Positions 19,801 to 37,224 of a stretch of DNA of 64,000 bases are shown here, piece after piece (the first letter of the stretch is position 1; the number at the start of each line of letters is the position of its first letter). The stretch spans positions 2,728,001 to 2,792,000 of the forward strand of contig NZ_CAJIMS010000001.1 of NCBI RefSeq assembly GCF_905175375.1, written 5' to 3'. The notes under the pieces were generated by a model. That model ran no database searches. It was not told the origin of the DNA and worked only from the letters and a program-made list of their open reading frames with translations. The position numbers and the translations under genes were made by a program. This DNA comes from Chryseobacterium aquaeductus (GTDB taxonomy: Bacteria; Bacteroidota; Bacteroidia; Flavobacteriales; Weeksellaceae).

Positions 19801-22079
19801 TTCCGGTTGTTTCAAATATGACCTCTTCCACAGCGTATGTATCATGGATTCCTACTGCTAATGCTACTTATAGAATAAGATGGAGACAGCAGGGTACAAC
19901 ATCTTGGGTGCAGCCAGCTGCACCTCTGGGTTATTTAGAGTTGCCTGCCGGACAAAGTTTTTATAATATTACTGGTCTTTTGGAACAGACTGCCTATGAA
20001 GTACAAATTCAGGCAAAATGTGGAACGACTTGGGGCGCATTTGGTCCTTCAGTCAATTTCACTACTCCTTCATTGACTTATTGTAGTATGATAGGAATTG
20101 GAACCAATGATTACATTTCTAATGTAACTGTAAGTCCTGTGAACTTCCCTGTGATGGATAATGCATCTCTTCAGACAAATTATACACTTTACAATACTCC
20201 TGCAACGCTTATCAATTTGGAAATCGGCTCTACAGGAAACCAATTATCTGTGTCAAAAGCTTGGGTTGGTACCACGTATGGTGATGCTGTATATGTTTAT
20301 ATTGACTGGAATAGAGATGGAATATTTGCAGATACGGAAAGAATCATGACTTCAGCATCTAGTACAGCAACTCCTGTTACAACGACATTTGCTGTTCCGG
20401 GAACGGGTGTTTATACAGGTCCGTATAATACAACAATGAGAGTTGTTCTGAAACGTGGAAGCGCACCTGTAATGTGTGTAGATCCTGCCAATGGTGAAGT
20501 AGAAGATTACGAAGTCAAATTAAGACCTTGTAGTAATGCTACCCCAACCAATGTAACGTTTAACCCAGTTACTCATAATTCAGCTACAATAAACTGGACT
20601 TCCGCAACAAGTAACAACGCATTTCTGGTAGAATACAGAGAAGTAACAAACCCTGCTTCTGCTTGGACTGTTATTAATGCTTCTGTTTTGGGTGGTAATC
20701 CTCCTGTCGTAATTAATGGTTTAACGCCGGCTACTGCGTATGAAGTGAGAATTGCTGCGGTATGTGGAAATGGTGGTGCAGGTGCTTATACTGCGATCCA
20801 GACATTCACTACAAGATGTGATCCTACACCTCCGAATGTGACTATTACAAATGTTACATCAACATCTGCTGTAATCACTTGGAACCCTCTTGTACCTAGC
20901 GCATCATATATTCTTAGATGGAGAATAGAAGGTACTACAGCGTGGAATACGCCTGTTGTTCCTCAGCCACCATCAAATTCTTACACGATTACAGGTTTAA
21001 ATTCTTTTGTAACGTATGAAGTGCAGGTAGCCAATCAGTGTGTTGGGGAGTCCACTCCAAATCCTTGGTCGAATCCTCAGGTATTTACAACAGTAAGAGT
21101 TTGTGAAATAGCTCCGCCGGGATTGACGATTACTACCTTAACGCCAACAACTGCAGAAGTTGTCTGGGATGCATTTCCGGGAGCAACTTATTTATTAAGA
21201 TATAGAAAAGTAGGTATTCCTAGCTGGACGAATGTTCCGGTGAACGTAAATACGTATACCATTACAGGACTTTTAGAATTAACAAAATATGAAATGCAGG
21301 TAGCCAATATTTGTAGTGGTACAACTGGTAATTTTACACCTCTGTATTATTTCACTACTCCAACTGTAGTGTATTGCCCAGTGTCATCTGCCAATTCTGC
21401 AACAGAATTTATTTCTAAAGTAACGGCCAAACCTACAGGAAAACCTGAAATGATCAATGAATCTGATGGATCTAATTACACAGATTTCACTGGAGATCCA
21501 ATGAAGCATATTGAGTTGATACAAGGTGCAGCAGGAAATCAGATCACCATCGATAAAACAATGAGCTCAGGTGCCAATGCCGGAGTAGCTGTCTGGATTG
21601 ATTTTGACAGAAACGGATACTTTGACATCAACGAAAGAATCTTAGCTGACGGACCAAACGATAACCCAACAGCAACTGCCACATTCACTGTGCCAACGAA
21701 TGCTTTTGTGAGCATGACAGATTACAAATACGCAGTAATGAGAGTAGCAATGCAGAAAGACGGAATTCCGGTCAACTGTTTGAGTTTCGATGATGGTGAA
21801 GTAGAAGATTATACAGTAAAAATATCGAAAGTTCCTGTTCCAAATTCATTGAATCAGAGTGATATTTTAATCTACCCAAATCCTGTAAAAACAACTTTAA
21901 ATGTAAAAAATATCAGTCCGAAAGCTGATTATAAAATTTACAGTGCTGCCGGAAGACTGGTATCTTCAGGTTTGATTATGAATAATGCAATTGATGTAAG
22001 CAGTCTGATAAACGGAGTGTATATTATTGATATTGTAGATGAAAAAGGTAGTGTACAGAAGAAATTTATTAAAGAATAG
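16827..22079 (+). CDS. Giant type IX-secreted FN3/GEVEDY adhesin-like protein
   Basis: 1750 residues. A signal peptide (cleavage near V-S-A-Q, residue 21) is followed by a MAM/jelly-roll-like region (about 25-205). Many fibronectin type III modules with W-x-x-A-x-x-A-T-Y and L-x-x-x-T-x-Y-E-V patterns follow. Four GEVEDY domains end in G-E-V-E-D-Y at residues 722, 971, 1223 and 1657. The C terminus (about 1680-1750) is a type A type IX secretion sorting domain (Y-P-N-P-V, G-V-Y-I-I-D, K-K-F-I). The protein should cross the outer membrane by the type IX system and be anchored or released at the surface. No enzyme motif was seen. The first two GEVEDY+FN3 units are near-identical, separated by 747 bp, pointing to recent tandem duplication. 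Confidence 0.92.
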   Translation: MNKVLLIITFFLAFIAKVSAQCAAVPVPFSQSFSTGALPSCWVSQNLTTTSTSANVKWRFSGTAGYGATGNGGRPAGTFAWVDASSPYANEHAVELISPQINLTGLTNPYVKFDWFKNHLTSATGTVPAYEHNLLKLEVNSGAGWVQIWSGNTNDPEWRTVGVPLAASYVGTTIQLKFTVDKDVLGNGYFYDDVLLDEVQVIQAPTCFVPVTLPVTNVAPTSGTINWAAPLAPAPAPANGYEYYFSTTNTPPVAATPGTATPGTSANLTPLVPGTTYYWWVRSVCSASDKSQWAEGEAFTPGQIGGGTATHAYLPVYSCLGFNYSQQIYTASEVTSAVGTNNYITAIRFFVSTTAATQGNYNQWDIYLGNTTQTDFPTTTSWVPSGSLTQVFSGTLPAMTAGTWVNIPLTTPFLWDGTSNIVIGVDENSTGTSCTANWGSYSAGTNRGMQYRNTATNPDPATPPTATSRYNVIPTLQMVGTVLAPCVTTPPVGLAVNNIAATSADVSWTPVAGATYVLRYRSLPAGTWTTVNITTPLTNTYTIPGLLELTQYEVEIATICGTGPAGAFSAPVNFTTPGVSWCPHAAQYTSATYGWISNVTVNPVGSAPLNNTSTQSQYTNFSTNPALELTLVRGTQNNSISIGKTWSGTQYANYTNVWIDFDRDGLFDTTELVYTSGSSNASPVTGTFNVPLVTYNGPNATRMRVVVSYAAAAGACSGNTYGEVEDYAVKFVDPVPCTNAAPTNLTATNLTPVSAVLSWMPAQGATYFIQWRQVGTTPWNTITPNPTVSTTTITNLNEQVQYEFRVAYICGGVQGNFAVPVQFTTPGIAWCPHAAQYTSATYGWISNVTVNPVGSTILNNTSVQSQYTDFSANPALELTLVRGTQNNTVTVGKTWSGTQYANYTNVWIDFDRNGIFDTGELIYTSGSNASSPVTGTFSVPLVTYNGPSATRMRVVVSYAAAAGACSGNTYGEVEDYAVKFIDLQPCNTVAPVPVVSNMTSSTAYVSWIPTANATYRIRWRQQGTTSWVQPAAPLGYLELPAGQSFYNITGLLEQTAYEVQIQAKCGTTWGAFGPSVNFTTPSLTYCSMIGIGTNDYISNVTVSPVNFPVMDNASLQTNYTLYNTPATLINLEIGSTGNQLSVSKAWVGTTYGDAVYVYIDWNRDGIFADTERIMTSASSTATPVTTTFAVPGTGVYTGPYNTTMRVVLKRGSAPVMCVDPANGEVEDYEVKLRPCSNATPTNVTFNPVTHNSATINWTSATSNNAFLVEYREVTNPASAWTVINASVLGGNPPVVINGLTPATAYEVRIAAVCGNGGAGAYTAIQTFTTRCDPTPPNVTITNVTSTSAVITWNPLVPSASYILRWRIEGTTAWNTPVVPQPPSNSYTITGLNSFVTYEVQVANQCVGESTPNPWSNPQVFTTVRVCEIAPPGLTITTLTPTTAEVVWDAFPGATYLLRYRKVGIPSWTNVPVNVNTYTITGLLELTKYEMQVANICSGTTGNFTPLYYFTTPTVVYCPVSSANSATEFISKVTAKPTGKPEMINESDGSNYTDFTGDPMKHIELIQGAAGNQITIDKTMSSGANAGVAVWIDFDRNGYFDINERILADGPNDNPTATATFTVPTNAFVSMTDYKYAVMRVAMQKDGIPVNCLSFDDGEVEDYTVKISKVPVPNSLNQSDILIYPNPVKTTLNVKNISPKADYKIYSAAGRLVSSGLIMNNAIDVSSLINGVYIIDIVDEKGSVQKKFIKE
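18567..19788 (+). repeat. Near-identical tandem GEVEDY/FN3 coding repeat
   Basis: The units beginning W-C-P-H-A-A at 18567 and 19314 (residues 581 and 830) encode almost the same 155-residue domain, with only scattered substitutions. The period is 747 bp (249 residues), including the linking FN3 module. Confidence 0.85.
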
Positions 22080-22301: not shown

Positions 22302-23648
22302 GTGAATAAAATATTAATCATCGATGATGAAGAGAAAATCAGAACCTTGCTTTCCAAAATTATCAGTCTGGAAGGTTTTGAAGTATTTCAGGCTTCCGAT
22401 CTGAAAAATGGAAGAAAAAGACTTGAAATTACTGACATCGATGTAGTGATATGTGATGTGAAACTTCCTGATGGAAGCGGAGTCGAATTTTCTAAAGTGA
22501 TCAAAGAAAAATTCCCATCCATAGAAATAATATTGCTTACTGCGTACGGAAATATTCCTGATGGTGTGCAAGCCATTAAAAACGGTGCTTTTGACTACAT
22601 TACCAAGGGTGACGACAACAACAAAATCATTCCGCTTTTATACAAAGCTACCGAGAAATCTGCACTCAACAAACGTGTTCTTCAATTGGAAAAACAGTTG
22701 GGAAACAAATATTCTTTCGATAAAATTTTCGGAAAATCAAAAGCTATAAAATCGGCAATCGACTCGGCAGAAAAAGTGGCTTCTACAGATGCTACAGTTT
22801 TATTAACCGGAGAAACAGGAACCGGTAAGGAAGTATTTGCGCAATCTATTCACAACGCAAGTGCCAGAAGAAAGCAGAATTTTATTGCGATTAACTGTTC
22901 TGCATTCAGCAAAGAATTGCTAGAAAATGAATTGTTCGGACACAAAGCAGGAGCTTTTACCGGAGCACTTAAAGACTCAAAAGGTATTTTTGAAGAAGCC
23001 AACCACGGAACTGTTTTTCTGGATGAACTTGGAGAAATGCCTCTCGATTTACAGGCAAAATTGCTTCGTGTTTTAGAATCCGGTGAGTTTATAAAAGTTG
23101 GAGACAACAAGCCAACCAAAATTAATGTCCGTATCATTGCCGCGACCAACAGAGATTTGCAGAAACAGATAGAACTCGGAGATTTCCGCGAAGATCTTTA
23201 TTATAGAATTAATATTTTCAATATTGCACTTCCGTCTTTAAGAGAAAGAGTTTCTGATATTGAAGAATTGGCAAGGCATTTTCTGAAAACATTTTCAGTG
23301 AAAACAGGTAAAAAAATTACATCAATAAATCCTCAATACCTAGATGCGCTTAAGCAACATCCCTGGAAAGGGAATATTCGGGAATTGCGAAATGTGATCG
23401 AAAGAAGCGTGATTCTTACAGATGGTTCGGAGTTAGATTTAATTTCTCTTCCATCAGATTTTCAAAGTTTAACTCCTGATAGTTCAAAAGGTAAAACGCT
23501 TTCTGCTTTCGAGCTTGCCAGTGCAGAAAAAGTACATATTCAGAAAGTCATCAATTATACCAACGGAAACAAAACAGAAACCGCAAAACTGCTGAATATT
23601 GCATTGACAACTTTGTACAGAAAACTGGAAGAATTTCAGATCAAATAA
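22302..23648 (+). CDS. NtrC-family sigma-54-dependent response regulator
   Basis: 448 residues with a GTG start (22302), directly in front of the receiver-domain strand K-I-L-I-I-D-D. Order of domains: receiver (1-120; Asp8/Asp9, phosphoacceptor Asp52, Thr80, Lys102), AAA+ sigma-54 activator (140-370), and Fis-type helix-turn-helix (420-446). The AAA+ part has Walker A G-E-T-G-T-G-K-E at 170-177, the sigma-54 contact loop G-A-F-T-G-A at 217-222, and Walker B V-F-L-D-E at 238-242. It can activate only sigma-54 promoters. The next forward-strand genes are the kdp operon, whose own kinase genes lie at its far end with no KdpE-type regulator. This protein is therefore the likely partner, replacing OmpR-type KdpE (inference). 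Its stop abuts the stop of the convergent sugar kinase gene with no gap. Confidence 0.93.
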   Translation: MNKILIIDDEEKIRTLLSKIISLEGFEVFQASDLKNGRKRLEITDIDVVICDVKLPDGSGVEFSKVIKEKFPSIEIILLTAYGNIPDGVQAIKNGAFDYITKGDDNNKIIPLLYKATEKSALNKRVLQLEKQLGNKYSFDKIFGKSKAIKSAIDSAEKVASTDATVLLTGETGTGKEVFAQSIHNASARRKQNFIAINCSAFSKELLENELFGHKAGAFTGALKDSKGIFEEANHGTVFLDELGEMPLDLQAKLLRVLESGEFIKVGDNKPTKINVRIIAATNRDLQKQIELGDFREDLYYRINIFNIALPSLRERVSDIEELARHFLKTFSVKTGKKITSINPQYLDALKQHPWKGNIRELRNVIERSVILTDGSELDLISLPSDFQSLTPDSSKGKTLSAFELASAEKVHIQKVINYTNGNKTETAKLLNIALTTLYRKLEEFQIK

Positions 23649-24584
23649 TTATTCGGCAGAGATTAAACGATATAGATAATCTACATTTTCTTTTTTGAAA
23701 AGGCCTGTTCCTGTAGCCATCGTTGTTGCAGATCCGCACGCAACACCCATTTGCAGCATCTCTTTATAACTGCCTTTTTTCATCAGTACAGAAACCATTC
23801 CTGCCACCATACTGTCACCGGCACCAACTGTACTTCTGACTTTGATTAATGGTGCCTGAACCCATATTTTCTCGTTTTCGGAACACAAAAATGCACCCTT
23901 TGATCCCATAGAAACTACCACCACTTCAGCTTTTTTTGATGAGATGAGTTCATAAGCTGCATCCTGCACTGATACGTTGTCCAGATCTTTGTTACCGGTT
24001 AATGCAGCCAATTCGCCAAGATTGGGTTTCAGCAGAAAGACAGATTCTTCTGCCGCAGCCTGCAAAGCTTCTCCCGAAGTATCTACGATTATTTTGCAGC
24101 CTTTATTTTTAAAATTTGAAATAATTTTTTTCAGGTAATTTGTAGAAATGTTTGGTGGCAAACTTCCACTGATCACCACAATTTCAGGTACAGTTTTTAT
24201 CTCTTCTAAAAATTTTAAAAAATCAGTTTGTTCTTGATCAGACACAGGATTTCCCTCCATTCCGAAACGGTACTGCTGTTGGTTGGAAGAATCTACTACG
24301 ATAAAATTTTCCCTCGTTTCTTCCATCACGGGAAATGCCTCTATTTTCAGATTTTCTTTTAGTAAAAGATCTTCCAGCATAGCACCTGTTCTTCCGCCTG
24401 AAAGAAATAAAGTTTCTGCATCGGCTCCCAATCTTTTTAAAGCTCTTGATATATTAATTCCACCACCTCCAGGTTCATAAACCGGACTTTCGCAACGGAG
24501 TTTTTGCTCGGGAACAATTCTTTCTACAGAACTGCTTTTATCAACAGAAGGATTGAGTGTGATTGTTAAAACTGAACTTGTCAT
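23649..24584 (-). CDS. PfkB-family sugar kinase (1-phosphofructokinase / 6-phosphofructokinase-2 type)
   Basis: 311 residues, cytoplasmic. Features: the N-terminal T-L-N-P-S-V-D of the hexose-phosphate kinase subfamily; PfkB signature 1 in P-G-G-G-G-I-N-I-S-R-A-L (about 37-48); and the anion-hole/catalytic signature S-T-V-G-A-G-D-S-M-V-A-G (about 250-261, catalytic Asp in G-A-G-D). It phosphorylates fructose-1-phosphate, fructose-6-phosphate or tagatose-6-phosphate; sequence alone does not decide. It is wedged in reverse between the NtrC-type regulator and the kdp operon, and shares its upstream region with kdp. The two operator-like repeats there could affect both. Confidence 0.88.
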   Translation of the reverse strand: MTSSVLTITLNPSVDKSSSVERIVPEQKLRCESPVYEPGGGGINISRALKRLGADAETLFLSGGRTGAMLEDLLLKENLKIEAFPVMEETRENFIVVDSSNQQQYRFGMEGNPVSDQEQTDFLKFLEEIKTVPEIVVISGSLPPNISTNYLKKIISNFKNKGCKIIVDTSGEALQAAAEESVFLLKPNLGELAALTGNKDLDNVSVQDAAYELISSKKAEVVVVSMGSKGAFLCSENEKIWVQAPLIKVRSTVGAGDSMVAGMVSVLMKKGSYKEMLQMGVACGSATTMATGTGLFKKENVDYLYRLISAE

Positions 24585-24643: not shown

Positions 24644-24681
24644 CTATCAAAACGATAGTAAACACCCTATCAAAACGCTAG
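24644..24681 (+). promoter_or_regulatory. Two tandem operator-like inverted repeats upstream of kdp
   Basis: CTATC-AAAAC-GATAG (24644-24658) is a perfect inverted repeat. CTATC-AAAAC-GCTAG (24667-24681) repeats it with one change, 23 bp further on, about two helical turns. They lie some 110-130 bp upstream of a possible -24/-12 promoter, the usual place for NtrC-type activator sites. Confidence 0.5.
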
Positions 24682-24757
24682 TGTTTGTTGATTGCCGAAA
24701 AATAAAAAAGTTCGTAAATACTTTGTAACAAAGGCTTTAACGGATTTTGATTGTTCA

Positions 24758-24773
24758 TGGACTCTAAATTGTC
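24758..24773 (+). promoter_or_regulatory. Possible sigma-54 (-24/-12) promoter of the kdp operon
   Basis: TGG-N8-TTG (24758-24760 and 24769-24771) has the exact -24/-12 spacing, but the -12 element is TTGTC rather than TTGCW. Transcription would start near 24783, 20 bases before the first small gene. Support comes mainly from context (sigma-54 activator gene nearby, upstream operator pair). Confidence 0.3.
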
Positions 24774-24802
24774 AATATTCTGGCATATCAAAATATAAAG
24801 TA

Positions 24803-24916
24803 ATGAACAACTGGAAATTAAAATACTACAGAAAACTAAAATCCTGGCATTTGCTTGCTGTTTTTTATGGTCTTATCATGTGTATCGGAATTACCTACAG
24901 AATTTTTAATCCTTAA
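24803..24916 (+). CDS. Small one-helix membrane protein, kdp leader gene
   Basis: 37 residues: a basic N terminus (K, K, R, K) followed by one hydrophobic helix of about 17 residues (L-L-A-V-F-Y-G-L-I-M-C-I-G-I), predicted inside-positive. Not a recognised family. It is the first of four very small genes in the same direction leading into kdpA, and the following ATG starts 4 bases after its stop. A single-pass accessory peptide of the Kdp pump is an inference from position. Confidence 0.5.
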   Translation: MNNWKLKYYRKLKSWHLLAVFYGLIMCIGITYRIFNP

Positions 24917-24920
24917 AACT

Positions 24921-25001
24921 ATGACAGCAATCTTAATCATTACGGGCACCATTCTGTTTGCCTTATTTTTTTTAACCATTAATTATTTCGAGAAAATATG
25001 A
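24921..25001 (+). CDS. Small one-helix membrane protein before KdpF
   Basis: 26 residues (M-T-A-I-L-I-I-T-G-T-I-L-F-A-L-F-F...), nearly all one transmembrane helix, ending N-Y-F-E-K-I. Its TGA overlaps the ATG of kdpF (ATGA), a strong sign of translational coupling and so of real expression. It has the size and layout of KdpF but lacks the P-E-x-F end seen in the next peptide. Confidence 0.5.
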   Translation: MTAILIITGTILFALFFLTINYFEKI

Positions 25002-25075
25002 CGCTTCTATTCATTATTGCCATCGCAGTATTTATCTATATCTGCTATGTGCTTGTAAAACCTGAGCAATTTTAA
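24998..25075 (+). CDS. kdpF: Potassium-transporting ATPase small subunit KdpF
   Basis: 25 residues: one transmembrane helix followed by the KdpF-like tail Y-V-L-V-K-P-E-Q-F. KdpF is a short lipid-like peptide that stabilises the KdpABC complex in the inner membrane. It is located in the kdp operon ahead of kdpA and coupled by a 4-base overlap to the upstream 26-residue gene. Too short for most gene callers. Confidence 0.75.
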   Translation: MTLLFIIAIAVFIYICYVLVKPEQF

Positions 25076-25088
25076 AAAATAATTAGCA

Positions 25089-25208
25089 ATGAATCGTAAG
25101 ATCATACATAGGATAAAAGAGTGGGGAATCCTGATTTTTTGGATCAGCTTCATCATCGCTTTTTTGTACCTCGTGATTACAGTAAAAGAATTTGCATTAA
25201 TTCATTAA
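25089..25208 (+). CDS. Small one-helix membrane protein between kdpF and kdpA
   Basis: 39 residues: a basic N terminus (N-R-K-I-I-H-R-I-K) and one transmembrane helix (W-G-I-L-I-F-W-I-S-F-I-I-A-F-L-Y). It starts 13 bases after kdpF and ends 7 bases before the kdpA ATG, leaving no space for anything but one operon. Unrecognised family; probably a further accessory peptide of the pump or of its biogenesis. Confidence 0.55.
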   Translation: MNRKIIHRIKEWGILIFWISFIIAFLYLVITVKEFALIH

Positions 25209-25215
25209 ACAAACT

Positions 25216-26904
25216 ATGAACACTGAAATTTTAGGCGTTGTAGCAATGTTTTTAATAACGTTGCTTTTAGCGATACCTTTTGGAAAATATATTTCAAAAG
25301 TGTACACAGGAGAAAAAACATTTCTTGATCCTGTTTTCAAACCTGTAGAAAAATTTTTCTACAAAATATCAGGCATTGATCCTGATCATGAGATGAACTG
25401 GAAGCAGCATCTTACAGCACTTTTAACGATCAATTTTCTTTGGTTTTTAATAAGTATGCTTGTTCTGATGAATATGAGCTGGTTACCACTCAATCCTGAC
25501 GGAAATCCTGATATGTCTCCGGATTTGGCATTCAATACATCTATTTCTTTTTTGGTTAACTGCAATTTACAACATTATTCAGGCGAAACAGGATTGAGTT
25601 ATCTGGGCCAAATGTGGCTCATGTTTTTACAGTTCGTTTCTGCAGCCACAGGAATCGCTGCAGCTATAGTTGTATTTAAGGCTTTCAGAGAAAAATCTAC
25701 GGATAAACTAGGGAATTTTTATGATTATTTCCTTAAATCAAGTACCAGAATTTTATTACCAATTTCATTGATCATTGGGATTGTAATGGTTTTTCAGGGA
25801 ATGCCAATGACTTTTGAAGGTAAAGACAAAATGATCACTTTGGAAGGGAAAAATGTTGAAGTTTCTACAGGTCCGGTTGCAGCATTTGTTCCCATCAAGC
25901 ATGTTGGAACCAATGGTGGAGGCTTTTTTGGAGTAAATTCAGCACATCCGCTGGAAAATCCGAACTATTTTACCAATATGGTAGAAATGTTTTCCCAATT
26001 GATCATTCCGATGGCAATTGTGTTTGCATTTGGATATTTTATCCGTAGAAAGAAATTCGGATACATGATTTTTGGTGTCATGACGTTTGGTTTTCTTTTA
26101 CTGGCAGTTCCTACAGTTGTTATGGAAATGAACGGTAATCCTGCCATCAGTCAGATGGGAATTGATCAGTCACTTGGGGCAATGGAAGGTAAGGAAGTGC
26201 GTTTTGGTTCTGCTGCATCGGGATTCTGGAGTATTGTGACTACGGTAATTTCTACAGGATCTGTGAATTCGATGCACGATAGCGCAATGCCGCTTTCAGG
26301 AATGACTCAGATGCTTGCAATGATGGTCAACGCATTTTTTGGCGGTGATGGAGTAGGTATTTTAAATATTTTCATCTACATCATTCTGGCAGTGTTTATA
26401 AGCGGACTGATGGTTGGTCGTACGCCTGAATTTATGGGTAAAAAAATTGAAGCACGTGAAATGAAAATTGCAATGATCATTGCACTGCTTCATCCTTTTC
26501 TTATTTTGGTCGGTACAGCAATAGCCGCTTATTTTCCGGAAGTCGGAACTTCTACACTTAATAATCCGGGTTTCCACGGTTTCAGTGAAGTTCTTTATGA
26601 ATATACATCTTCAGCAGCTAACAACGGAAGTGGTTTCGAAGGATTGGGTGATAATAATCCGTTTTGGAATATTTCTACAGGTGTTATTTTACTTCTCGGT
26701 CGTTTCTTACCGATTATCGGTCCGTTAGCAATTGCAGGACTATTAGCTCAGAAAAAATATATACCAGAAGGAGAAGGAACACTGAAAACTGATACTTCAA
26801 CATTTGGATTGATGACTTTTGCAGTAATCGCTATTATAGCAGCATTATCATTCTTCCCGGCGTTGGCATTGGGGCCAATTGCAGAATATTTTTCATTGAA
26901 ATAA
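25216..26904 (+). CDS. kdpA: Potassium-transporting ATPase subunit A
   Basis: 562 residues, the usual KdpA length; inner membrane, about ten transmembrane helices. KdpA is the K+-binding, channel-like subunit related to Trk/Ktr. Seen are the selectivity-filter regions N-C-N-L-Q-H-Y, G-T-N-G-G-G-F-F-G-V-N-S-A-H-P and S-A-A-N-N-G-S-G-F-E-G-L, all carrying the conserved Gly. With KdpB, C and F it imports K+ at very low external K+. kdpB follows after 127 bases, which include an inverted repeat. Confidence 0.97.
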   Translation: MNTEILGVVAMFLITLLLAIPFGKYISKVYTGEKTFLDPVFKPVEKFFYKISGIDPDHEMNWKQHLTALLTINFLWFLISMLVLMNMSWLPLNPDGNPDMSPDLAFNTSISFLVNCNLQHYSGETGLSYLGQMWLMFLQFVSAATGIAAAIVVFKAFREKSTDKLGNFYDYFLKSSTRILLPISLIIGIVMVFQGMPMTFEGKDKMITLEGKNVEVSTGPVAAFVPIKHVGTNGGGFFGVNSAHPLENPNYFTNMVEMFSQLIIPMAIVFAFGYFIRRKKFGYMIFGVMTFGFLLLAVPTVVMEMNGNPAISQMGIDQSLGAMEGKEVRFGSAASGFWSIVTTVISTGSVNSMHDSAMPLSGMTQMLAMMVNAFFGGDGVGILNIFIYIILAVFISGLMVGRTPEFMGKKIEAREMKIAMIIALLHPFLILVGTAIAAYFPEVGTSTLNNPGFHGFSEVLYEYTSSAANNGSGFEGLGDNNPFWNISTGVILLLGRFLPIIGPLAIAGLLAQKKYIPEGEGTLKTDTSTFGLMTFAVIAIIAALSFFPALALGPIAEYFSLK

Positions 26905-26927
26905 AATGGAGTACATGACATTTTTTC

Positions 26928-26987
26928 AACCACAAAATTTTCAAAACGTAAAACTTAGAAAGCGTTAAAATCATTTTCTTTTGTGGT
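26928..26987. repeat. Inverted repeat in the kdpA-kdpB gap
   Basis: ACCACAAAA (26929-26937) and TTTTGTGGT (26979-26987) are exact inverted arms around about 40 bases. The same ACCACAAA end sequence recurs in the elements near 43450, 48220 and 60770, suggesting a repeat family. Confidence 0.5.
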
Positions 26988-27031
26988 AAAAATCAAGTAT
27001 AAAAAATAAAATTTAAATAACAGAAATTAAA

Positions 27032-29041
27032 ATGGCTCAAAATAAATCTTTGTTTCAAAAAGAATTGGTTCAGGAAGCATTGAAACAGTCTTTTGTGAAA
27101 CTAAATCCGAAGCTGATGTTTAAAAATCCCGTCATGTTTCTCGTGTGGCTGGGTACATTGGTGATGTTTTTTGTGAGCATCTGGACTTTGACAGGAGAAA
27201 AATCTCAGGGAACATTCGCTTATAATTTTACCGTATTTATTATTCTTCTACTCACCGTTTTGTTTGGGAATTTTGCCGAAGCAATTGCCGAAGCAAGAGG
27301 GAAAGCACAGGCAGACAGCCTTCGTAAAACAAGAGAAGAAACACCTGCAAAACTCCAAAATGGTGACACTGTTTCTTCATCTAAATTGCAAAAAGGCGAT
27401 ATATTTGTTTGTGAAGCCGGAGACATTATCCCGTCAGACGGAGATATTATCGAAGGTCTTGCAACCATAGATGAGAGTGCCATTACCGGAGAATCTGCTC
27501 CCGTAATCCGTGAGGCAGGTGGTGATAAAAGCTCTGTAACGGGAGGAACAAAAGTTTTGTCGGATAAAATTATCGTACAGGTAACCACGCAACCAGGAGA
27601 AAGTTTTTTAGATAAAATGATTGCCTTGGTTGAAGGTGCTTCCCGACAGAAAACACCAAACGAAATTGCTTTAACTATTTTACTGGCAGGTTTTACATTG
27701 GTTTTTATCATCGTTTGTGTGACTCTAAAACCATTTGCCGATTATTCTAATGTAACCATTACCATTGCATCATTCATCTCTCTTTTTGTTTGCCTGATTC
27801 CTACTACAATTGGTGGATTGTTATCAGCGATTGGTATTGCCGGTATGGACAGAGCTTTGCGAGCCAACGTGATTACAAAAAGTGGTAGAGCAGTAGAAAC
27901 AGCCGGTGATATCGACGTTTTACTTTTAGATAAAACTGGTACGATTACCATTGGTAACCGTAAAGCGACAAGTTTTTATTCAGCTAATCAAATTGATGAA
28001 AAGCAATTGATCAAAGCAGCGGTCTTAAGTTCAATGGCAGATGAAACTCCTGAAGGGAAATCAATCATTGAGCTTGCGGGAATCAACCCGTTAAGCTATG
28101 AGATCAGCAATCCGCAATACATTAAATTTACTGCAGAAACACGAAGTTCTGGAATTGATTATGACGGAACACGCATCAGAAAAGGAGCAACCGACGCCAT
28201 CAGAAAAATATCTGAAGCGGCTGGAAATAATTTTCCGCACGAAACAGATTTAAAAGTAAAAGAAATTTCTCAAAACGGAGGAACCCCATTGGTGGTTTCA
28301 GAAAATGAAAAAGTTTTGGGAGTGATTGAACTTCAGGATATTATCAAACCCGGAATCAGTGAGCGTTTTGATCGTCTCCGAAAAATGGGAATCAAAACGG
28401 TAATGGTGACCGGAGATAATCCTTTGACCGCAAAATTTATTGCCGAGAAAGCGGGTGTAGATGATTTCATTGCCGAAGCGAAACCGGAAGACAAGATGAA
28501 TTACATCAAAAAAGAACAATCCGAAGGAAGATTGGTCGCAATGATGGGCGATGGTACCAATGACGCACCAGCTCTTGCGCAGGCAGATGTTGGCGTAGCA
28601 ATGAACAGCGGAACGCAGGCAGCAAAAGAGGCCGGAAATATGGTCGATCTGGATAATGATCCTACCAAGCTGATCGAAGTGGTGGAAATCGGTAAGCAGT
28701 TGCTGATGACACGAGGAACGCTGACGACATTCAGTATTGCCAATGATGTTGCCAAGTATTTTGCTATTATCCCGGCATTGTTTATCACAGCAATTCCCAC
28801 ATTACAAGGTTTAAATATCATGAATCTTCACAGTCCCGAAAGTGCAATTTTATCTGCGGTGATCTTTAACGCGATCATTATTCCGATATTGATTCCTCTC
28901 GCGCTAAAAGGAGTTGCTTATAAACCCATTGGTGCATCGGCTTTACTGAGAAGAAATCTCTTAATCTTCGGATTGGGTGGTGTGATCATACCATTTATCG
29001 GAATTAAAATGATAGATATCATCGTTTCACTATTTTTCTAA
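27032..29041 (+). CDS. kdpB: Potassium-transporting P-type ATPase subunit B
   Basis: 669 residues, inner membrane. This is the ATP-hydrolysing subunit of the Kdp pump. The phosphorylated Asp is in D-K-T-G-T (Asp300). Also present: T-G-E-S (actuator domain, about residue 151), the T-G-D-N hinge, and M-x-G-D-G-x-N-D near residue 510. A full-length, intact P-type ATPase. It is followed after 105 bases by kdpC; the gap holds an imperfect hairpin with a T run (29052-29129) that might lower downstream expression. Confidence 0.97.
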
Positions 29042-29051
29042 ATATTCACAG

Positions 29052-29129
29052 GCAAGGCAGGGAGAAACTTTATTTATGCTACTTTTCGTCCTTTTAACTA
29101 TCTCAATTCTTCCTGCAACTTGCTTTTTT
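29052..29129 (+). terminator. Imperfect hairpin with T run between kdpB and kdpC
   Basis: GCAAGGCAGG..GAA (from 29052) can pair, with bulges, with TTC..CCTGC..CTTGC (29107-29123), followed by six T. It may attenuate rather than end transcription because kdpC must be expressed. Weak. Confidence 0.3.
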
Positions 29130-29146
29130 ATTAAATTTATTACAAA

Positions 29147-29707
29147 ATGAAAAAACATATTTTACCTGCAATCAAACTTACCGTTTTATGCATTATCTTA
29201 TTCACGGTGATTTATCCGGTCTCAATCTGGGCGATTGCTCAGCTTTCAGACAACCAGGGAAGAGGAGAAATTATAGAACATAATGGCAAAACATATTATG
29301 CCAATATCGGACAATCTTTTACCAGCGACAAATATTTCAATTCTCGCCCTTCGGCGGTTGATTACAATGCTGCCGGTTCTGCGGGAAGCAACAAAGGTCC
29401 TTCGAATGACGAATATCTGAAACAGGTTCAGGCTCGCATTGATACCATCTTAATGAAAAATCCGGGAATCACGAAGTCACAAATTCCGGCAGATCTCGTT
29501 ACGGCAAGCGGAAGCGGATTGGATCCTAATTTCTCTGTACAGGCAGCAAAAATTCAGGCAGAGAGAATTGCTAAGATCAGAAATATTGACGTGGTAAAAA
29601 TCAATAATCTCATTGCGCAACATACAGACAAACCTCTCATCGGACTTTTTGGTCCTGAAAAAATTAACGTATTAAAACTCAACATCGCATTAGACGGTTT
29701 GAAATAA
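29147..29707 (+). CDS. kdpC: Potassium-transporting ATPase subunit C
   Basis: 186 residues: one N-terminal transmembrane helix (about 8-30) and a periplasmic domain. Typical KdpC motifs are Y-F-x-S-R-P-S-A, A-S-G-S-G-L-D-P and L-x-x-H-x-D-x-P-x-x-G. It stabilises the KdpAB complex. It is followed by an outer-membrane porin-like gene after only 23 bases, so the two are probably co-transcribed. Confidence 0.96.
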   Translation: MKKHILPAIKLTVLCIILFTVIYPVSIWAIAQLSDNQGRGEIIEHNGKTYYANIGQSFTSDKYFNSRPSAVDYNAAGSAGSNKGPSNDEYLKQVQARIDTILMKNPGITKSQIPADLVTASGSGLDPNFSVQAAKIQAERIAKIRNIDVVKINNLIAQHTDKPLIGLFGPEKINVLKLNIALDGLK

Positions 29708-29730
29708 TTTTTAAAAATTTATAAAAAGAA

Positions 29731-30813
29731 ATGAAAAAAATAGTTTTACTGACATTTTCGATGTTAGGAATATCAACTCTTACTTTTGCTCAGGAAGAAA
29801 ATAAAAATCCTCTGAAAATAACTGCTTACGCTGAAGTCTATTATCAGTATGATTTTAATAATCCTGAAAATAATACACGTCCAGGCTTTGTCTACAGCCA
29901 CAATCGCAATAATGAAGTAAATCTGAATCTTGGATTGATAAAAGCCAATTACGAAACCGAAAAACTAAGAGCCAATGTTGCTTTCGGTGTTGGAACTTAT
30001 ATGAATGCCAACTACTCTGCAGAACCCGGCGTTCTGAAAAATATTTATGAAGCCAATGTAGGTCTCAAAATTTCAAAATCAAAAAATCTTTGGATTGATG
30101 CCGGAATTATGCCGTCACATATCGGTTTTGAAAGTGCTATCAGTAAAGATTGTGCTACACTTACCCGAAGTATTTTGGCAGATAATTCGCCATATTTTGA
30201 AAGTGGCGCAAAAATATCTTACACCAGTGACAACGGAAAATGGTTTGTTAGCGGACTGGTTTTGAATGGTTGGCAAAGAATACAACGTGTAGACGGAAAC
30301 AGCACGGTGGCTTTCGGACATCAATTAACGTATAAACCAACAGAAAAAGTTACCCTAAACAGCAGTTCTTTTATAGGAAACGACAAACCGGACAGCATCA
30401 GACAAATGCGCTATTTTCATAATTTGTACGGGATTTTCCAGTTGACTGAGAAGTTTGCTTTTACGACAGGTTTTGACATTGGTGCAGAACAAAAATCTAA
30501 AGGAAGCGAGCAGTATAATGTTTGGTATTCGCCTGTGGTGATCGCAAAATATGCTTTTTCAGAGAAATTCGGTATGGCAGCGAGAGCAGAATATTACAGC
30601 GACAAGCATCAGGCAATCATCAGCACAAGAACAGAAAACGGTTTTCAGACTTTCGGATATTCTCTGAATGCTGATTATTGGATTCTCCCGAATCTGGTTT
30701 GGCGTACAGAAGTTAAACATCTCAACAGCAAAGATTCTGTTTTCCAAGATCGAAATAATCCGATGAGAAACAATAATCTGATGGCTGTTACGTCTCTTGC
30801 CGTCAATTTTTAA
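29731..30813 (+). CDS. Outer-membrane porin-like beta-barrel in the kdp operon
   Basis: 360 residues. Signal peptide with cleavage near T-F-A-Q (residue 21). Amphipathic strands run throughout, ending ...V-T-S-L-A-V-N-F with a terminal Phe, typical of a porin barrel (BBP2-like). It lies 23 bases after kdpC and before kdpD. An ion-uptake porin serving potassium entry through the outer membrane is a good inference from position. The Kdp operons of E. coli and related bacteria have no such gene. Confidence 0.82.
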   Translation: MKKIVLLTFSMLGISTLTFAQEENKNPLKITAYAEVYYQYDFNNPENNTRPGFVYSHNRNNEVNLNLGLIKANYETEKLRANVAFGVGTYMNANYSAEPGVLKNIYEANVGLKISKSKNLWIDAGIMPSHIGFESAISKDCATLTRSILADNSPYFESGAKISYTSDNGKWFVSGLVLNGWQRIQRVDGNSTVAFGHQLTYKPTEKVTLNSSSFIGNDKPDSIRQMRYFHNLYGIFQLTEKFAFTTGFDIGAEQKSKGSEQYNVWYSPVVIAKYAFSEKFGMAARAEYYSDKHQAIISTRTENGFQTFGYSLNADYWILPNLVWRTEVKHLNSKDSVFQDRNNPMRNNNLMAVTSLAVNF

Positions 30814-30831
30814 TCATTCCATATTTCCTTG

Positions 30832-30862
30832 ATCTCCTGTTGATTTTTTTTTGACAGGAGAT
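30832..30862 (+). terminator. Hairpin between the porin and kdpD genes
   Basis: ATCTCCTGT (30832-30840) pairs exactly with ACAGGAGAT (30854-30862) around a T-rich loop. There is no full T tract after the stem (TTATC), so partial termination or RNA processing is as likely as a true stop. Confidence 0.5.
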
Positions 30863-30889
30863 TTATCAATTTAATATTAATAATCTGTT

Positions 30890-32011
30890 ATGGAGGCAAA
30901 AAAATCTGCACAGGATTTCTTAGATTTAATAAAAAAATCAAGAAGGGGAAAAATCAAGATCTACATCGGGATGAGTGCCGGCGTTGGTAAAACTTACCGT
31001 ATGCTTCAGGAAGCTCATTCGCTTTTAAAAAGTGGAATAGATGTTAAAATCGGATATATTGAAACTCACAACAGGAAAGAAACCCACGCTTTGCTAGACG
31101 GTTTGCCCATTATCCCGAGAAGAAAATTATTTTATAAAGGTAAAGAGCTGGAAGAATTGGATATGCTTGCCGTTATCAACCTGAGACCAGAAGTGGTGAT
31201 CATTGATGAGCTGGCTCATACCAATATTGAAGGCAGCAAAAACGATAAACGATGGCAGGATGTGATGGATATTCTGGATGCAGGAATTAATGTGATAAGT
31301 GCTGTCAATATTCAACATATTGAAAGCCTTAATGAAGAAGTGAAAAACATTACAGGGATTGAAGTGAAAGAGAGAATCCCGGATAGTATTTTGATGCTTG
31401 CTGATGAAGTGGTAAATATTGATCTCACCGCAGACGAGTTGATTATACGACTGAAAGAGGGAAAGATCTATGAAAATGCAAAAATAAATTCGGCGTTAAG
31501 CAATTTTTTTAAAAATGAAAATATTCTTCAGCTTCGGGAGTTGGCACTGAAAGAAGTAACTTCGCAGGTAACCCGAAAGGTGGAAACTGAAGTTATAAAT
31601 CATAAAATCATTAAGAAAGAAAAATTTTTGGCTTGTATAAGTTCTAACGAAAAAACTGCCAAAAATGTCATCAGAAAGGTCGCAAGATTAGCCAATTATT
31701 ATAACAGCCAATGGTATCTTTTGTATGTGCAAACTCCGGGTGAAAATCCTATTAAGATTGCTTTGGATAAACAGAGGCATCTGATAAATAATTTTAAACT
31801 TGCTACAGAATTGGGTGCAGAGATCATAAGGGTAGAAAATTCTAATGTAACCAAAGCAATCATTCAGCAATGTGATGAAAGAAAAATTACAACGGTCTGC
31901 ATCGGAAAACCGCATCTCAAACTTTGGAAAATAATTGCTGCAACAGACCAATTCAATTCTTTGCTCAATAAATTGTCAAAAGAAAATATAGACTTAGTAA
32001 TTTTGTCATAA
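30890..32011 (+). CDS. kdpD: Truncated KdpD: sensor half only (KdpD + Usp domains)
   Basis: 373 residues, against about 900 in E. coli. It holds the KdpD domain with Walker A G-M-S-A-G-V-G-K-T (27-35), the V-V-I-I-D-E-L-A-H-T-N Walker B region (about 103-113), and a Usp-like domain (about 248-373). The transmembrane, GAF and histidine-kinase parts are absent, and the stop is natural: the next gene, a separate histidine kinase, starts in a TAATG overlap. It is a soluble cytoplasmic sensor, probably acting on that kinase in trans (inference). In classical KdpD this half binds ATP and c-di-AMP-type signals. Confidence 0.92.
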   Translation: MEAKKSAQDFLDLIKKSRRGKIKIYIGMSAGVGKTYRMLQEAHSLLKSGIDVKIGYIETHNRKETHALLDGLPIIPRRKLFYKGKELEELDMLAVINLRPEVVIIDELAHTNIEGSKNDKRWQDVMDILDAGINVISAVNIQHIESLNEEVKNITGIEVKERIPDSILMLADEVVNIDLTADELIIRLKEGKIYENAKINSALSNFFKNENILQLRELALKEVTSQVTRKVETEVINHKIIKKEKFLACISSNEKTAKNVIRKVARLANYYNSQWYLLYVQTPGENPIKIALDKQRHLINNFKLATELGAEIIRVENSNVTKAIIQQCDERKITTVCIGKPHLKLWKIIAATDQFNSLLNKLSKENIDLVILS

Positions 32012-33735
32012 TGAAAATCAAAACTAAATTAAACGCCGGCGTAGGATTGCTTTTCCTAATGATTATCGTGTTATCCGTTATAAGCGGTTGGTACATCAAT
32101 CAATTGAAAAGAGACACCAACAATATATTGGTTGCCAACTATAATACACTGCAATACTCCCGGAATATGCTTTTGGCATTGGAAGAAATAAATTCTGATC
32201 CTTCGGCGTATAATGTCTTTGAAGAGCATTTGGAAAAGCAGAAAAAGAACATCACCGAAGTTGGGGAAAAAGAGGCAACAGAAAGTATTGCCACCCATTT
32301 TGAAGTATTAAAAAAACAAACAAATAATCAAACAATATTATCTTCCATCAGAAAAGATATTGCAGAATTGATGCAACTGAATATGGTAGCTATCGAGCAC
32401 AAAAGCAGCACGGCAAACGCTACCGCACAAAATGCTATCGTTATTATTTCTGTTGCAGGCACGCTTTGTTTCATCATTGCTTTTATCCTGATGGTGAATC
32501 TTCCTTCTAATATTGCAAATCCTATTCGGGAATTGGGTGCGAGCATCAGGCAGATTGCCAATCAAAATTATAAAGAGAGAGTTCATTTTGAGAGCCATAG
32601 TGAATTTGGAGAATTGGCAAGATCATTCAACACAATGGCAGAGAAATTACAGGAATATTCTGAAACTAAAATCGACAAAATTATCAAAGCAAAAAAAAGA
32701 ATAGAAAGTTTAATTGATAATATGCACGATCCCGTAATTGGAATTGACGAAAATAAAAAAATATTGTTTGTAAATGATGAAGCTCTTAAAATTACAGGTC
32801 TCAGAAGGGATAATATCGTTGGGAAACTCATTCAGGATGTGGCGGTTACCAATGATCTGGTAAGAGATATTATAAAAGAAATGATTTCTTCCGAAGCTTT
32901 ACAACTGAATAAAGAACCCATGAAAATCTACGCAGATGGTAAAGAAAGTTATTTTGAGAAAGATATTATCGACATCAACGTAATGCCGACCGGAGAAAGA
33001 CAAACCGAATTTATCGGTCAGGTCATTATGTTGCGAAATATCACACCTTTCAAAGAACTGGATCTGGCAAAAACCAGTTTTATGGGAACGGTTTCTCATG
33101 AGTTCAAAACACCGATTTCATCGATCCAGATGGGAGTGCAACTTCTTGAAAATAAACAAATCGGCGAATTGAATGAAGAGCAGGAAAATCTTGTGACAGG
33201 CATTAAAGAAGATACCAATCGACTTCTGAAAATCACAGGAGAACTGCTCAATATAACGCAGGTAGAAAGTGGATCAATTCAGCTGAATATTCAGCAATCT
33301 GATGTCTTAGAAATTGTAAACTATGCCATTGATGCTAATAGAAGTGCAGCAGAGCAGAAGCAGATAAAGATCAATGTGGATATAGACTCTGAAATCACAA
33401 AAGTTTTGGCAGACAGCGAAAAAACAGCTTGGGTACTGAATAATCTTGTATCGAATGCAATTCGTTATTCGTACGAAAATTCAGAGATTTTTATTGATGT
33501 GAAAAAAGATCATCAAAAAATAAGATTTTCTGTAAAAGATTCCGGACAGGGAATAGAATCTCAATATCTCGACAAGATTTTTGATCGATATTTCCGCATT
33601 CCCAATTCCAAAAAAGAAGGTACAGGTTTGGGTTTAAGTATCAGCAAAGAATTTATAGAAGCTCAGGGAGGCAAGATCGTTGTAAAAAGTGAACTCGGCT
33701 TCGGAAGCGAGTTTTATTTTGTACTAAACGGATGA
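32011..33735 (+). CDS. HAMP/PAS sensor histidine kinase, kdp-associated
   Basis: 574 residues, inner membrane. Transmembrane helix 1 (about 10-28), a periplasmic helical sensor region, transmembrane helix 2 (about 145-168), HAMP (about 168-222), PAS (about 235-350), HisKA with H-box V-S-H-E-F-K-T-P (His363), then HATPase_c with N box N-N-L-V-S-N-A, G1 D-S-G-Q-G-I and G2 G-T-G-L-G-L-S. It shares one base with the kdpD stop codon, so it is tightly coupled. It supplies the kinase that the short KdpD lacks; its likely target is the NtrC-type regulator at 22302 (inference). Confidence 0.93.
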   Translation: MKIKTKLNAGVGLLFLMIIVLSVISGWYINQLKRDTNNILVANYNTLQYSRNMLLALEEINSDPSAYNVFEEHLEKQKKNITEVGEKEATESIATHFEVLKKQTNNQTILSSIRKDIAELMQLNMVAIEHKSSTANATAQNAIVIISVAGTLCFIIAFILMVNLPSNIANPIRELGASIRQIANQNYKERVHFESHSEFGELARSFNTMAEKLQEYSETKIDKIIKAKKRIESLIDNMHDPVIGIDENKKILFVNDEALKITGLRRDNIVGKLIQDVAVTNDLVRDIIKEMISSEALQLNKEPMKIYADGKESYFEKDIIDINVMPTGERQTEFIGQVIMLRNITPFKELDLAKTSFMGTVSHEFKTPISSIQMGVQLLENKQIGELNEEQENLVTGIKEDTNRLLKITGELLNITQVESGSIQLNIQQSDVLEIVNYAIDANRSAAEQKQIKINVDIDSEITKVLADSEKTAWVLNNLVSNAIRYSYENSEIFIDVKKDHQKIRFSVKDSGQGIESQYLDKIFDRYFRIPNSKKEGTGLGLSISKEFIEAQGGKIVVKSELGFGSEFYFVLNG

Positions 33736-36315: not shown

Positions 36316-37224
36316 TTATCCCGGACATGGCAAAGTAATATCAAAACCGGCATTACCATCAGAATTACTTGTATTATTTTTATTCTTCAAAAAGAACAAA
36401 GGAATATCCGTATTGTTAATTATATGTTTGAGAAAATTTTCCGAGAAAATAGATTTCCAGCTGTCTTCATCCTGATAATTCAGAATAATAATATCAGCAA
36501 GATCATCCTTAGAAAATTTTGAAATCTGAGTTGCTTTATCGCGCGTCAGCAGAAAGTGAGATTCGTATTCTTGTCCGCTTACAGCAAGATTTTTTCTTAT
36601 TTCCTGATAAGCGTCTGTGATAGTCAGAAGATCATCTTCACTGCTGATTCCCAACAAACTTATCACGCCTTTGTTTTTTTTGGCAATCGCTAAAGAAAGA
36701 TCCACCTTTTCTGATAAATCATCTAAAACCCTCACCGTAACCAATATTTTTTCAAAAGAATATTTAACACAGTTTTCTGGAACCAAAAGTACAGAGCAGT
36801 TGGCACCATTTAGAATTTCATACGATAAAGAACCCAAAATCAGTTGTGCAAATTTTTGCTGACCAGAAGTGCCGCTCACGATGAGGTCTACATTTTCCAG
36901 ATCAATTGTGTCGTTTATTCCATTCACCAAACTGTCATTTTTGATGATTGTTTCAAAATGTAGAGTTGGAAACTCACTCGTTAAAGACGATTTCAAATCT
37001 GATAGTGCATTCTCAGTTTTTTCAGAATTTTCTTTAATAGTTTCTGCTCCAATCACTTGTTTTCCTGTTCTGTCAATTAAAAAATGATTATTAATACTGT
37101 GAAATATAATGATACGTGCACTGTGACGTGTGGCTATATTTGCAGCCATTTTAATTGCGTTATTAGACTTTTCAGAAAAATTGGTAGTTACAAGAATGGT
37201 ATTGATTGAATTTTTTTTCATCAT
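36316..37224 (-). CDS. Tandem universal stress protein
   Basis: 302 residues with two Usp domains (about 1-145 and 150-285). The first has the ATP-binding pattern G-x2-G-x9-G-S, seen as G-T-S-G ... L-G-S-L-S. The second lacks a clear copy. Cytoplasmic stress or energy-response protein. It is the first gene of the reverse-strand operon with the GNAT and racemase-family genes. A perfect -7 box lies 28 bases upstream of its start. Confidence 0.9.
   Translation of the reverse strand: MMKKNSINTILVTTNFSEKSNNAIKMAANIATRHSARIIIFHSINNHFLIDRTGKQVIGAETIKENSEKTENALSDLKSSLTSEFPTLHFETIIKNDSLVNGINDTIDLENVDLIVSGTSGQQKFAQLILGSLSYEILNGANCSVLLVPENCVKYSFEKILVTVRVLDDLSEKVDLSLAIAKKNKGVISLLGISSEDDLLTITDAYQEIRKNLAVSGQEYESHFLLTRDKATQISKFSKDDLADIIILNYQDEDSWKSIFSENFLKHIINNTDIPLFFLKNKNNTSNSDGNAGFDITLPCPG

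Follow-up and report, generated by a model that had tools for sequence, protein, structure and literature searches.

How is the potassium pump Kdp controlled in a bacterium whose KdpD is shortened and whose genome appears to lack a KdpE? The question is raised by the kdp locus of Chryseobacterium aquaeductus, which we analysed within a 64,000-nucleotide stretch (the window; assembly GCF_905175375.1, contig NZ_CAJIMS010000001.1, positions 2,728,001 to 2,792,000) of a 3.49-Mb genome that is 99.94% complete. Among named relatives, those closest by KdpD are a Weeksellaceae metagenome-assembled genome and members of Chryseobacterium and Epilithonimonas (84-86%). An earlier reading of the DNA letters (the original prediction) had listed an NtrC-type activator at 22302, kdpFABC, a short KdpD and a HAMP/PAS kinase joined to it by TAATG. 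The open reading frames (ORFs) and their domains confirmed all of these, and the kdpD stop overlaps the kinase start at 32009-32013.

We propose, with a probability of about 0.6, that Kdp is under a two-layer control which occurs widely in Bacteroidota. In the first layer, the HAMP/PAS membrane kinase would sense low K+ or a correlate of it and phosphorylate the NtrC-type regulator. The regulator would then bind the palindromes at 24644-24681 and activate transcription by sigma-54 polymerase from a promoter of the -24/-12 type about 90-125 bp downstream, and the transcript would carry the small ORFs, kdpFABC, a porin gene, kdpD and the kinase gene as one operon. In the second layer, the short KdpD would phosphorylate the TGES serine of KdpB, S155, and thereby close the pump at ample K+. 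The sequence itself shows the genes, their domains and conserved association, the catalytic residues, the palindrome with its spacing to the promoter-like element in relatives, and no KdpE-like regulator, whereas phosphotransfer, the use of sigma-54, the K+ signal, the single operon and the serine-kinase activity for this species are inferred. Taken alone, sigma-54-type control of transcription by the kinase and activator pair is likely. The principal features are as follows.

22302..23648 (+): NtrC-type response regulator gene, with REC, Sigma54_activat AAA+ and Fis-type helix-turn-helix domains; GTG start
24644..24658: palindrome 1, CTATCAAAACGATAG, putative activator site (upstream activating sequence, UAS)
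24667..24681: palindrome 2, CTATCAAAACGCTAG, with one mismatch, 23 bp beyond palindrome 1
24770..24787 (+): TGTCAATATTCTGGCATA, top match to a -24/-12-like element, 14.5 bits
24998..25075 (+): kdpF, 25-codon ORF, Pfam PF09604, 24.9 bits vs cut-off 21.2
25216..26904 (+): kdpA, domain match
27032..29041 (+): kdpB, TGES serine at residue 155
29147..29707 (+): kdpC, domain match
30890..32011 (+): short KdpD gene, KdpD domain and Usp region, without transmembrane (TM), GAF or kinase parts
32011..33735 (+): histidine kinase gene, with HAMP, PAS, HisKA and HATPase domains; H-box HEFKTP at residue 363

Regulators and kinases that accompany kdp

The activator has all the features of the NtrC class, namely a REC domain with an acceptor Asp (DVKLPDG from residue 52), a Sigma54_activat domain with GAFTGA at residue 217 and a Fis-type helix-turn-helix. 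The kinase has two hydrophobic segments besides its HAMP-PAS-HisKA-HATPase domains, and for both proteins the top NCBIfam matches were under the cut-offs. Although the activator gene is present as predicted, it lies outside the span 24644..33735 originally assigned to the system and is parted from kdp by an opposite-strand gene at 23649-24584. The genome holds one KdpD and one rpoN, and three of the nine listed Sigma54_activat matches are strong. None of its six Trans_reg_C places is KdpE-like. The top regulator of the genome shares 37% identity (140 bits) with KdpE, as opposed to 43-70% identity and 193-344 bits within a set of six KdpEs from relatives, and we therefore rejected a KdpE encoded elsewhere. 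The absence of an OmpR-type KdpE, on which the original prediction had staked itself, thus holds genome-wide.

We surveyed the phylum with PF02702, which was over the cut-off in 89 of 296 genomes. Its 97 matches comprised two fragments, the window's own KdpD and 94 loci, which were taken with up to 9.6 kb per side and annotated by bait proteins from the window genome. The KdpDs fall into a short (372-426 aa, n=37), a middle (535-642 aa, n=39) and a full-length class (873-985 aa, n=18). By Pfam, all 39 middle KdpDs carry PTS_EIIA_2 without any kinase domain, and the full-length ones carry DUF4118 and HATPase (18/18), HisKA (17) and GAF_3 (15), with HAMP or PAS in none of the 18. All 37 short loci have kdpA or kdpB together with the kinase, and none has an OmpR regulator. 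The NtrC-type gene, kdp, short KdpD and kinase occur together in 35 of the 37, so that the conservation proposed earlier as a check is indeed seen. Among the 28 middle loci with kdpA or kdpB, 24 have the activator and one has an OmpR regulator; the other 11 middle loci have neither pump gene, and the activator is found in seven of them. The picture is reversed in the full-length class, where 16 loci have kdpA or kdpB (OmpR regulator 16/16, activator 0/16) and two have neither pump gene. Seven activators counted as present (two short, five middle) were seen in part because the stretch ends inside them. For loci with kdpA or kdpB, the activator is thus present in 59 of 65 non-full vs 0 of 16 full loci (Fisher p=2e-12), and the OmpR regulator in 1 of 65 vs 16 of 16 (Fisher p=5e-16), p-values that are descriptive only since related genomes are not independent.

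Among 80 named loci, the activator near kdp was absent, partial or weak in 23. Nine of these stand on short stretches and were left aside, and 14 were followed into whole genomes, where all 14 had an activator copy (59-68% identity); one such organism (locus L046) also has a second kdp locus, L058, with an adjoining activator. A FastTree phylogeny of 88 regulators places the window activator in a set of 43 rows, the smallest with support (97). It comprises 29 of the 34 short-locus activators and all 14 copies extracted from the whole genomes, with five short-locus activators outside. The middle-class activators form one separate clade with a support of 100. These results support the conclusion that, across the phylum, activator, kinase and short KdpD occur together with kdp and replace KdpE there.

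The original prediction regarded the KdpD and the kinase as a split KdpD. A FastTree phylogeny of 98 kinase domains, which included 16 of the 18 full-length KdpD kinases (two were not extracted) and gave long-branch warnings, placed these 16 apart from the kinases of short and EIIA loci with a support of 100. The window kinase lies outside the branch of full-length KdpD kinases and has HAMP-PAS where KdpD has TM-GAF. Tree position and domain order both argue against a detached C-terminal half of KdpD, and the split is not supported. Likewise, the KdpD is shortened as predicted, but to call it a sensor half is a misnomer because the sites at which E. coli KdpD has been suggested to sense K+ lie in the missing TM/GAF part (PMC11018627, cited here, like the papers below, from part of its text).

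Two plasmids came up beside the survey. The record of a 278-kb Parabacteroides distasonis plasmid (L254) carries kdpABC, a short KdpD and an ATP-binding protein, so a kdp cluster can sit on a plasmid, and a plasmid search also returned a Synechocystis plasmid with a short KdpD.

The upstream palindrome, the promoter-like element and the remaining genes

For the short class, we collected the DNA upstream of kdpA in 109 cases, of which 71 come from the named loci, 37 from the survey and one from the window. These regions are related to one another and were not dereplicated, and a species may be represented in both sets. The exact palindrome CTATC-N5-GATAG occurs in 46 of them, compared with a mean of 0.0 in 20 mononucleotide shuffles, and with up to one mismatch in 70, compared with 3.2. 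It was found in none of 26 middle (EIIA-class) and none of 12 full-length upstream regions. Since the EIIA class lacks the palindrome and its activators form a separate clade, we do not claim the same site for that class.

An 18-bp element was learned from 56 dereplicated segments, including the two of the window. It reads approximately (G/T)G-N10-GGCAT. Its G's 12 bp apart are nearly invariant, with a frequency of 0.99 for the one that lies 12 bp upstream of the second GG. The spacing of its doublets is that of sigma-54 -24/-12 elements. One of the patterns GG-N9-GG, GG-N10-GG or GG-N10-GC starts 90-98 bp past the palindrome in 57 of 70 loci, as opposed to a mean of 1.5 and a maximum of 7 in 200 dinucleotide shuffles, although the pattern was picked after viewing the loci and describes them rather than giving a blind test. 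The top match in the window, at 24770-24787, starts 103 and 126 bp beyond the starts of the two palindromes, and a second, weaker one begins at 24759 (4.4 bits). A like element is seen in L024 and L041 together with tandem palindromes of variant sequence, near -101/-124 and -104/-127, and L028 has one variant palindrome at -102. The predicted transcription of kdp by sigma-54 is therefore backed by a conserved palindrome and a -24/-12-like element in relatives, while the window promoter itself fails a strict -24/-12 test.

The other genes of the region are listed below.

23649..24584 (-): PfkB-like gene (family by eye), between activator and kdp
24803..24916 (+): 37-codon small ORF, hydrophobic by eye, without family match
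24921..25001 (+): 26-codon peptide ending YFEKI, recurring in relatives; its stop overlaps the kdpF start
25089..25208 (+): 39-codon small ORF, hydrophobic by eye, without accepted family
29731..30813 (+): BBP2/OmpL-like porin gene, between kdpC and kdpD

Of the 80 named loci, just two, L018 and L024, have a PfkB-like gene between activator and kdp by tblastn. A hydrophobic peptide of 26-28 codons ending in F[FY]EKI or similar precedes kdpF in 74 of the 109 short-class regions and in none of the 28 EIIA-class or 14 full-length regions examined. Three copies had no Pfam match and two no NCBIfam match, and the peptide is possibly a second KdpF-like subunit. A porin match, weak in some cases, is present in 28 of 37 short loci, as opposed to one of the 39 middle and four of the 18 full-length loci; the BBP2/OmpL-like porin is perhaps an outer-membrane route for K+. 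Upstream of the activator, the window encodes a 1750-aa protein (16827-22079) in which, by eye, fibronectin-like segments recur and the C-terminal tail is sorting-like.

The short KdpD and the weighing of alternatives

The N-terminal domain of KdpD phosphorylates S162 of KdpB and inhibits KdpB, a role that the short KdpD/Usp form keeps (PMC11018627). The original prediction let the KdpD half sense in trans; a serine kinase inhibiting KdpB is better grounded on this published work, while the close coupling of the genes makes an added role in trans conceivable. The catalytic residues are present in the window KdpD, with G33-K34-T35 in GMSAGVGKT, D106-E107 and R187. Among 95 aligned KdpDs, G33, K34, D106 and R187 are found in all 95, T or S at position 35 in 95 and E107 in 93. 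The adenine-binding W39 of the published KdpD corresponds to Y36 in the window, residues being matched to the E. coli numbers of the paper by a constant offset of 3 without aligning the E. coli sequence. On the side of the target, TGES is present in all 151 KdpB ORFs longer than 600 aa, and we took S155 of the window KdpB as the equivalent of E. coli S162. Pfam matched only PF02702 in the window KdpD and gave no Usp match; the homologue at L146 does have a Pfam Usp match, and the window KdpD aligns through the same region. A PDB search had a single match, the KdpD N-terminal domain 2r8r. The top NCBIfam family, matched over nearly the full length, was NF038185 (KdpD_non_kinase), at 355 bits vs a curated cut-off of 550, so that the window KdpD is not a formal member. 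A serine-kinase role of the short KdpD is likely, about as likely as the sigma-54-type control.

What might feed into this brake? The short KdpD of Deinococcus geothermalis responds to cyclic di-AMP (c-di-AMP; PMC11018627). A profile search limited to the PF02457 family found no diadenylate cyclase in the window genome, with a control search positive in 11 of 14 genomes, and the published c-di-AMP input therefore looks unavailable. PF02457 is present in 185 of the 296 phylum genomes; by KdpD class, it is found in 17 of 38 short, 1 of 34 middle and 16 of 17 full-length genomes, a distribution that follows phylogeny. Of the two Usp motifs described in PMC4686210, the window has the E. coli-like RxxxR-X8-WxxxY and lacks the S. 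aureus c-di-AMP type, SXS-X20-FTAXY. About 2.6 kb past the kinase gene, the window also encodes a universal stress protein (36316-37224, -). E. coli UspC binds the Usp domain of KdpD (PMC11018627), and a partner role for this protein is thus conceivable. KdpD-EIIA fusions were seen at L143 (8608-10278, -), at L197 (9496-11232, +) and at 37 further middle loci. A link between EIIANtr and KdpD exists in the literature, and together with the fusions it suggests a phosphotransferase system (PTS) input to Kdp. More tentatively, and we consider this rather doubtful, many Bacteroidota might run Kdp in a third mode, independent of a TM/GAF K+-sensing kinase and of c-di-AMP, in which the HAMP/PAS kinase and sigma-54 activator would set transcription and a kinase-less KdpD, either lacking a diadenylate cyclase partner as in the window or fused to EIIA as in many relatives, would brake the pump by serine phosphorylation, its input coming from the neighbouring kinase or from the PTS.

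Several observations weigh against the two-layer control. All evidence here is at the level of sequence. With rpoN in 294 of 296 phylum genomes, co-occurrence discriminates nothing and has no power to link sigma-54 with kdp, and 2 of the 37 short-KdpD loci have no nearby activator. The exact palindrome is not enriched genome-wide, with two places vs three for the reversed pattern, the second copy lying inside a gene that is SurA-like by eye; the weight of the palindrome rests on its position. The second doublet of the learned element is GG (TTGG) as opposed to the canonical -12 GC (TTGC). Of the 70 loci, 13 do not pass the strict spacing test; the window is one of them, and its element at 24770-24787 has a good -12 part and TGT in place of the -24 GG. 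Matches in the window to canonical TGGCAC-N5-TTGCW with up to two mismatches are at chance level (26 vs 26.8 expected), and a genome scan with a version of the element (124 vs 70 for the reversed pattern) is too loose to name a regulon. A study of sigma-54 regulons gives the consensus TGGCAC-N5-7-TTGCT, and its main text, as far as covered here, contains neither 'kdp' nor 'potassium' (PMC12316311). As to the second layer, serine-kinase activity has been demonstrated for E. coli and D. geothermalis KdpD, and these demonstrations, in the part of the paper drawn on here, cover no Bacteroidota KdpD (PMC11018627).

Could the activator bind the palindromes while the housekeeping sigma factor, rather than sigma-54, reads the promoter? 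Housekeeping promoters of Bacteroidota are of the TTG / TAnnTTTG type, the conserved 3' part of the element, TTTTGGCAT, contains TTTG, and the -24 part in the window is degenerate. However, the learned motif shows no enrichment for the TA of TAnnTTTG, while its upstream G is nearly invariant. The GAFTGA and sigma-54 interaction domain of the activator and the palindrome-element distance of 90-98 bp in 57 of 70 loci also speak against the housekeeping factor, and we regard this reading as improbable. That the activator regulates something else, with kdp constitutive or under an unlinked OmpR-type regulator, could be argued from the opposite-strand gene between activator and kdp and from the several regulators that act on the D. 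vulgaris kdp operon (PMC3333781). The phylum-wide linkage, the palindrome upstream of kdp and the lack of a KdpE-like protein at the Trans_reg_C places make it very improbable.

A further alternative concerns the second layer, in that the short KdpD might, as the original prediction has it, be a sensor acting in trans on the neighbouring kinase, and through it on the activator, with minor or absent serine-kinase activity. The kinase gene starts at most 211 bp downstream of the short kdpD in all 37 loci, and in 21 of them the two genes overlap or lie no more than 9 bp apart; the missing PF02457 cyclase would fit a different input from that of the published short form. Yet where EIIA-type loci contain kdp, their kinase mostly stands beside the activator, away from kdpD; no fusion of KdpD to a HAMP-PAS kinase is seen among the 18 full-length and 39 middle KdpDs; the suggested K+-sensing sites lie in absent parts; and the serine-kinase residues are conserved almost without exception. 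We thus consider a pure trans-sensor unlikely and retain the two-layer control.

Comparison with known systems

The classical KdpD/KdpE system has the same pump and the same KdpD N-terminal domain as the window, but it has TM (DUF4118), GAF and kinase parts together with the OmpR-family KdpE, whereas the window KdpD is without these parts and the genome is without a KdpE-like regulator. The nearest published likeness is offered by Desulfovibrio vulgaris, whose kdp-linked response regulator DVU3334 we presume to be of the NtrC family. DVU3334 regulates its own kdpFABC operon, and a KdpD/UspA chain and a kinase chain are encoded in two ORFs (DVU3334-DVU3339; PMC3333781). In that organism, 22 of 29 DNA-binding regulators are of the NtrC family, the family of DVU3334 not being named in the part of the paper used here (PMC3333781). 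Unlike in the window, the regulator gene is part of the operon, which is a target of two further regulators as well; the likeness is one of layout, judged by the published description. The original prediction presented the system as rewired, but a dedicated regulator and a two-chain KdpD and kinase on kdpFABC had already been mapped in Desulfovibrio, and we take the window system for a variant, not for a new kind of control.

Two Deinococcus systems resemble other parts of the locus. The short KdpD of D. geothermalis combines a KdpD domain with Usp and responds to c-di-AMP (PMC11018627). The window KdpD, in which a region aligned with the Usp domain of relatives follows the KdpD domain, keeps the catalytic residues, as KdpB keeps the target serine, but the window genome is without PF02457 and the Usp motif is E. 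coli-like. The lack of PF02457 in 21 of 38 short-KdpD and 33 of 34 KdpD-EIIA genomes limits c-di-AMP as a common input of short KdpDs in the phylum. In D. radiodurans, a truncated kdpD sits in the structural operon and kinase and regulator are separate, as in the window, but the text covered presents that kinase as KdpD's C-terminal half and does not call the regulator NtrC type (PMC5716572).

A search of the open literature, in which most matches were judged by listing alone, returned no description of NtrC-type kdp control in Bacteroidota, though one listed paper on Chryseobacterium, PMC10634447, contains the words KdpD and NtrC. The same search did not find the conserved site, the phylum-wide replacement of KdpE, the missing cyclase and the EIIA fusions in print. 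Bacteroidota have been counted in 2024 among the phyla with mainly short KdpD, kinase-less forms going with the absence of KdpE, and where a separate kinase is unidentified, kdp expression was suggested to be constitutive or to follow an unknown mechanism (PMC11018627). The window differs from that case in having a separate kinase and an NtrC-type regulator. Kinase, activator, site and promoter-like element thereby provide a concrete and conserved candidate for the kdp transcription control that the published account left open.

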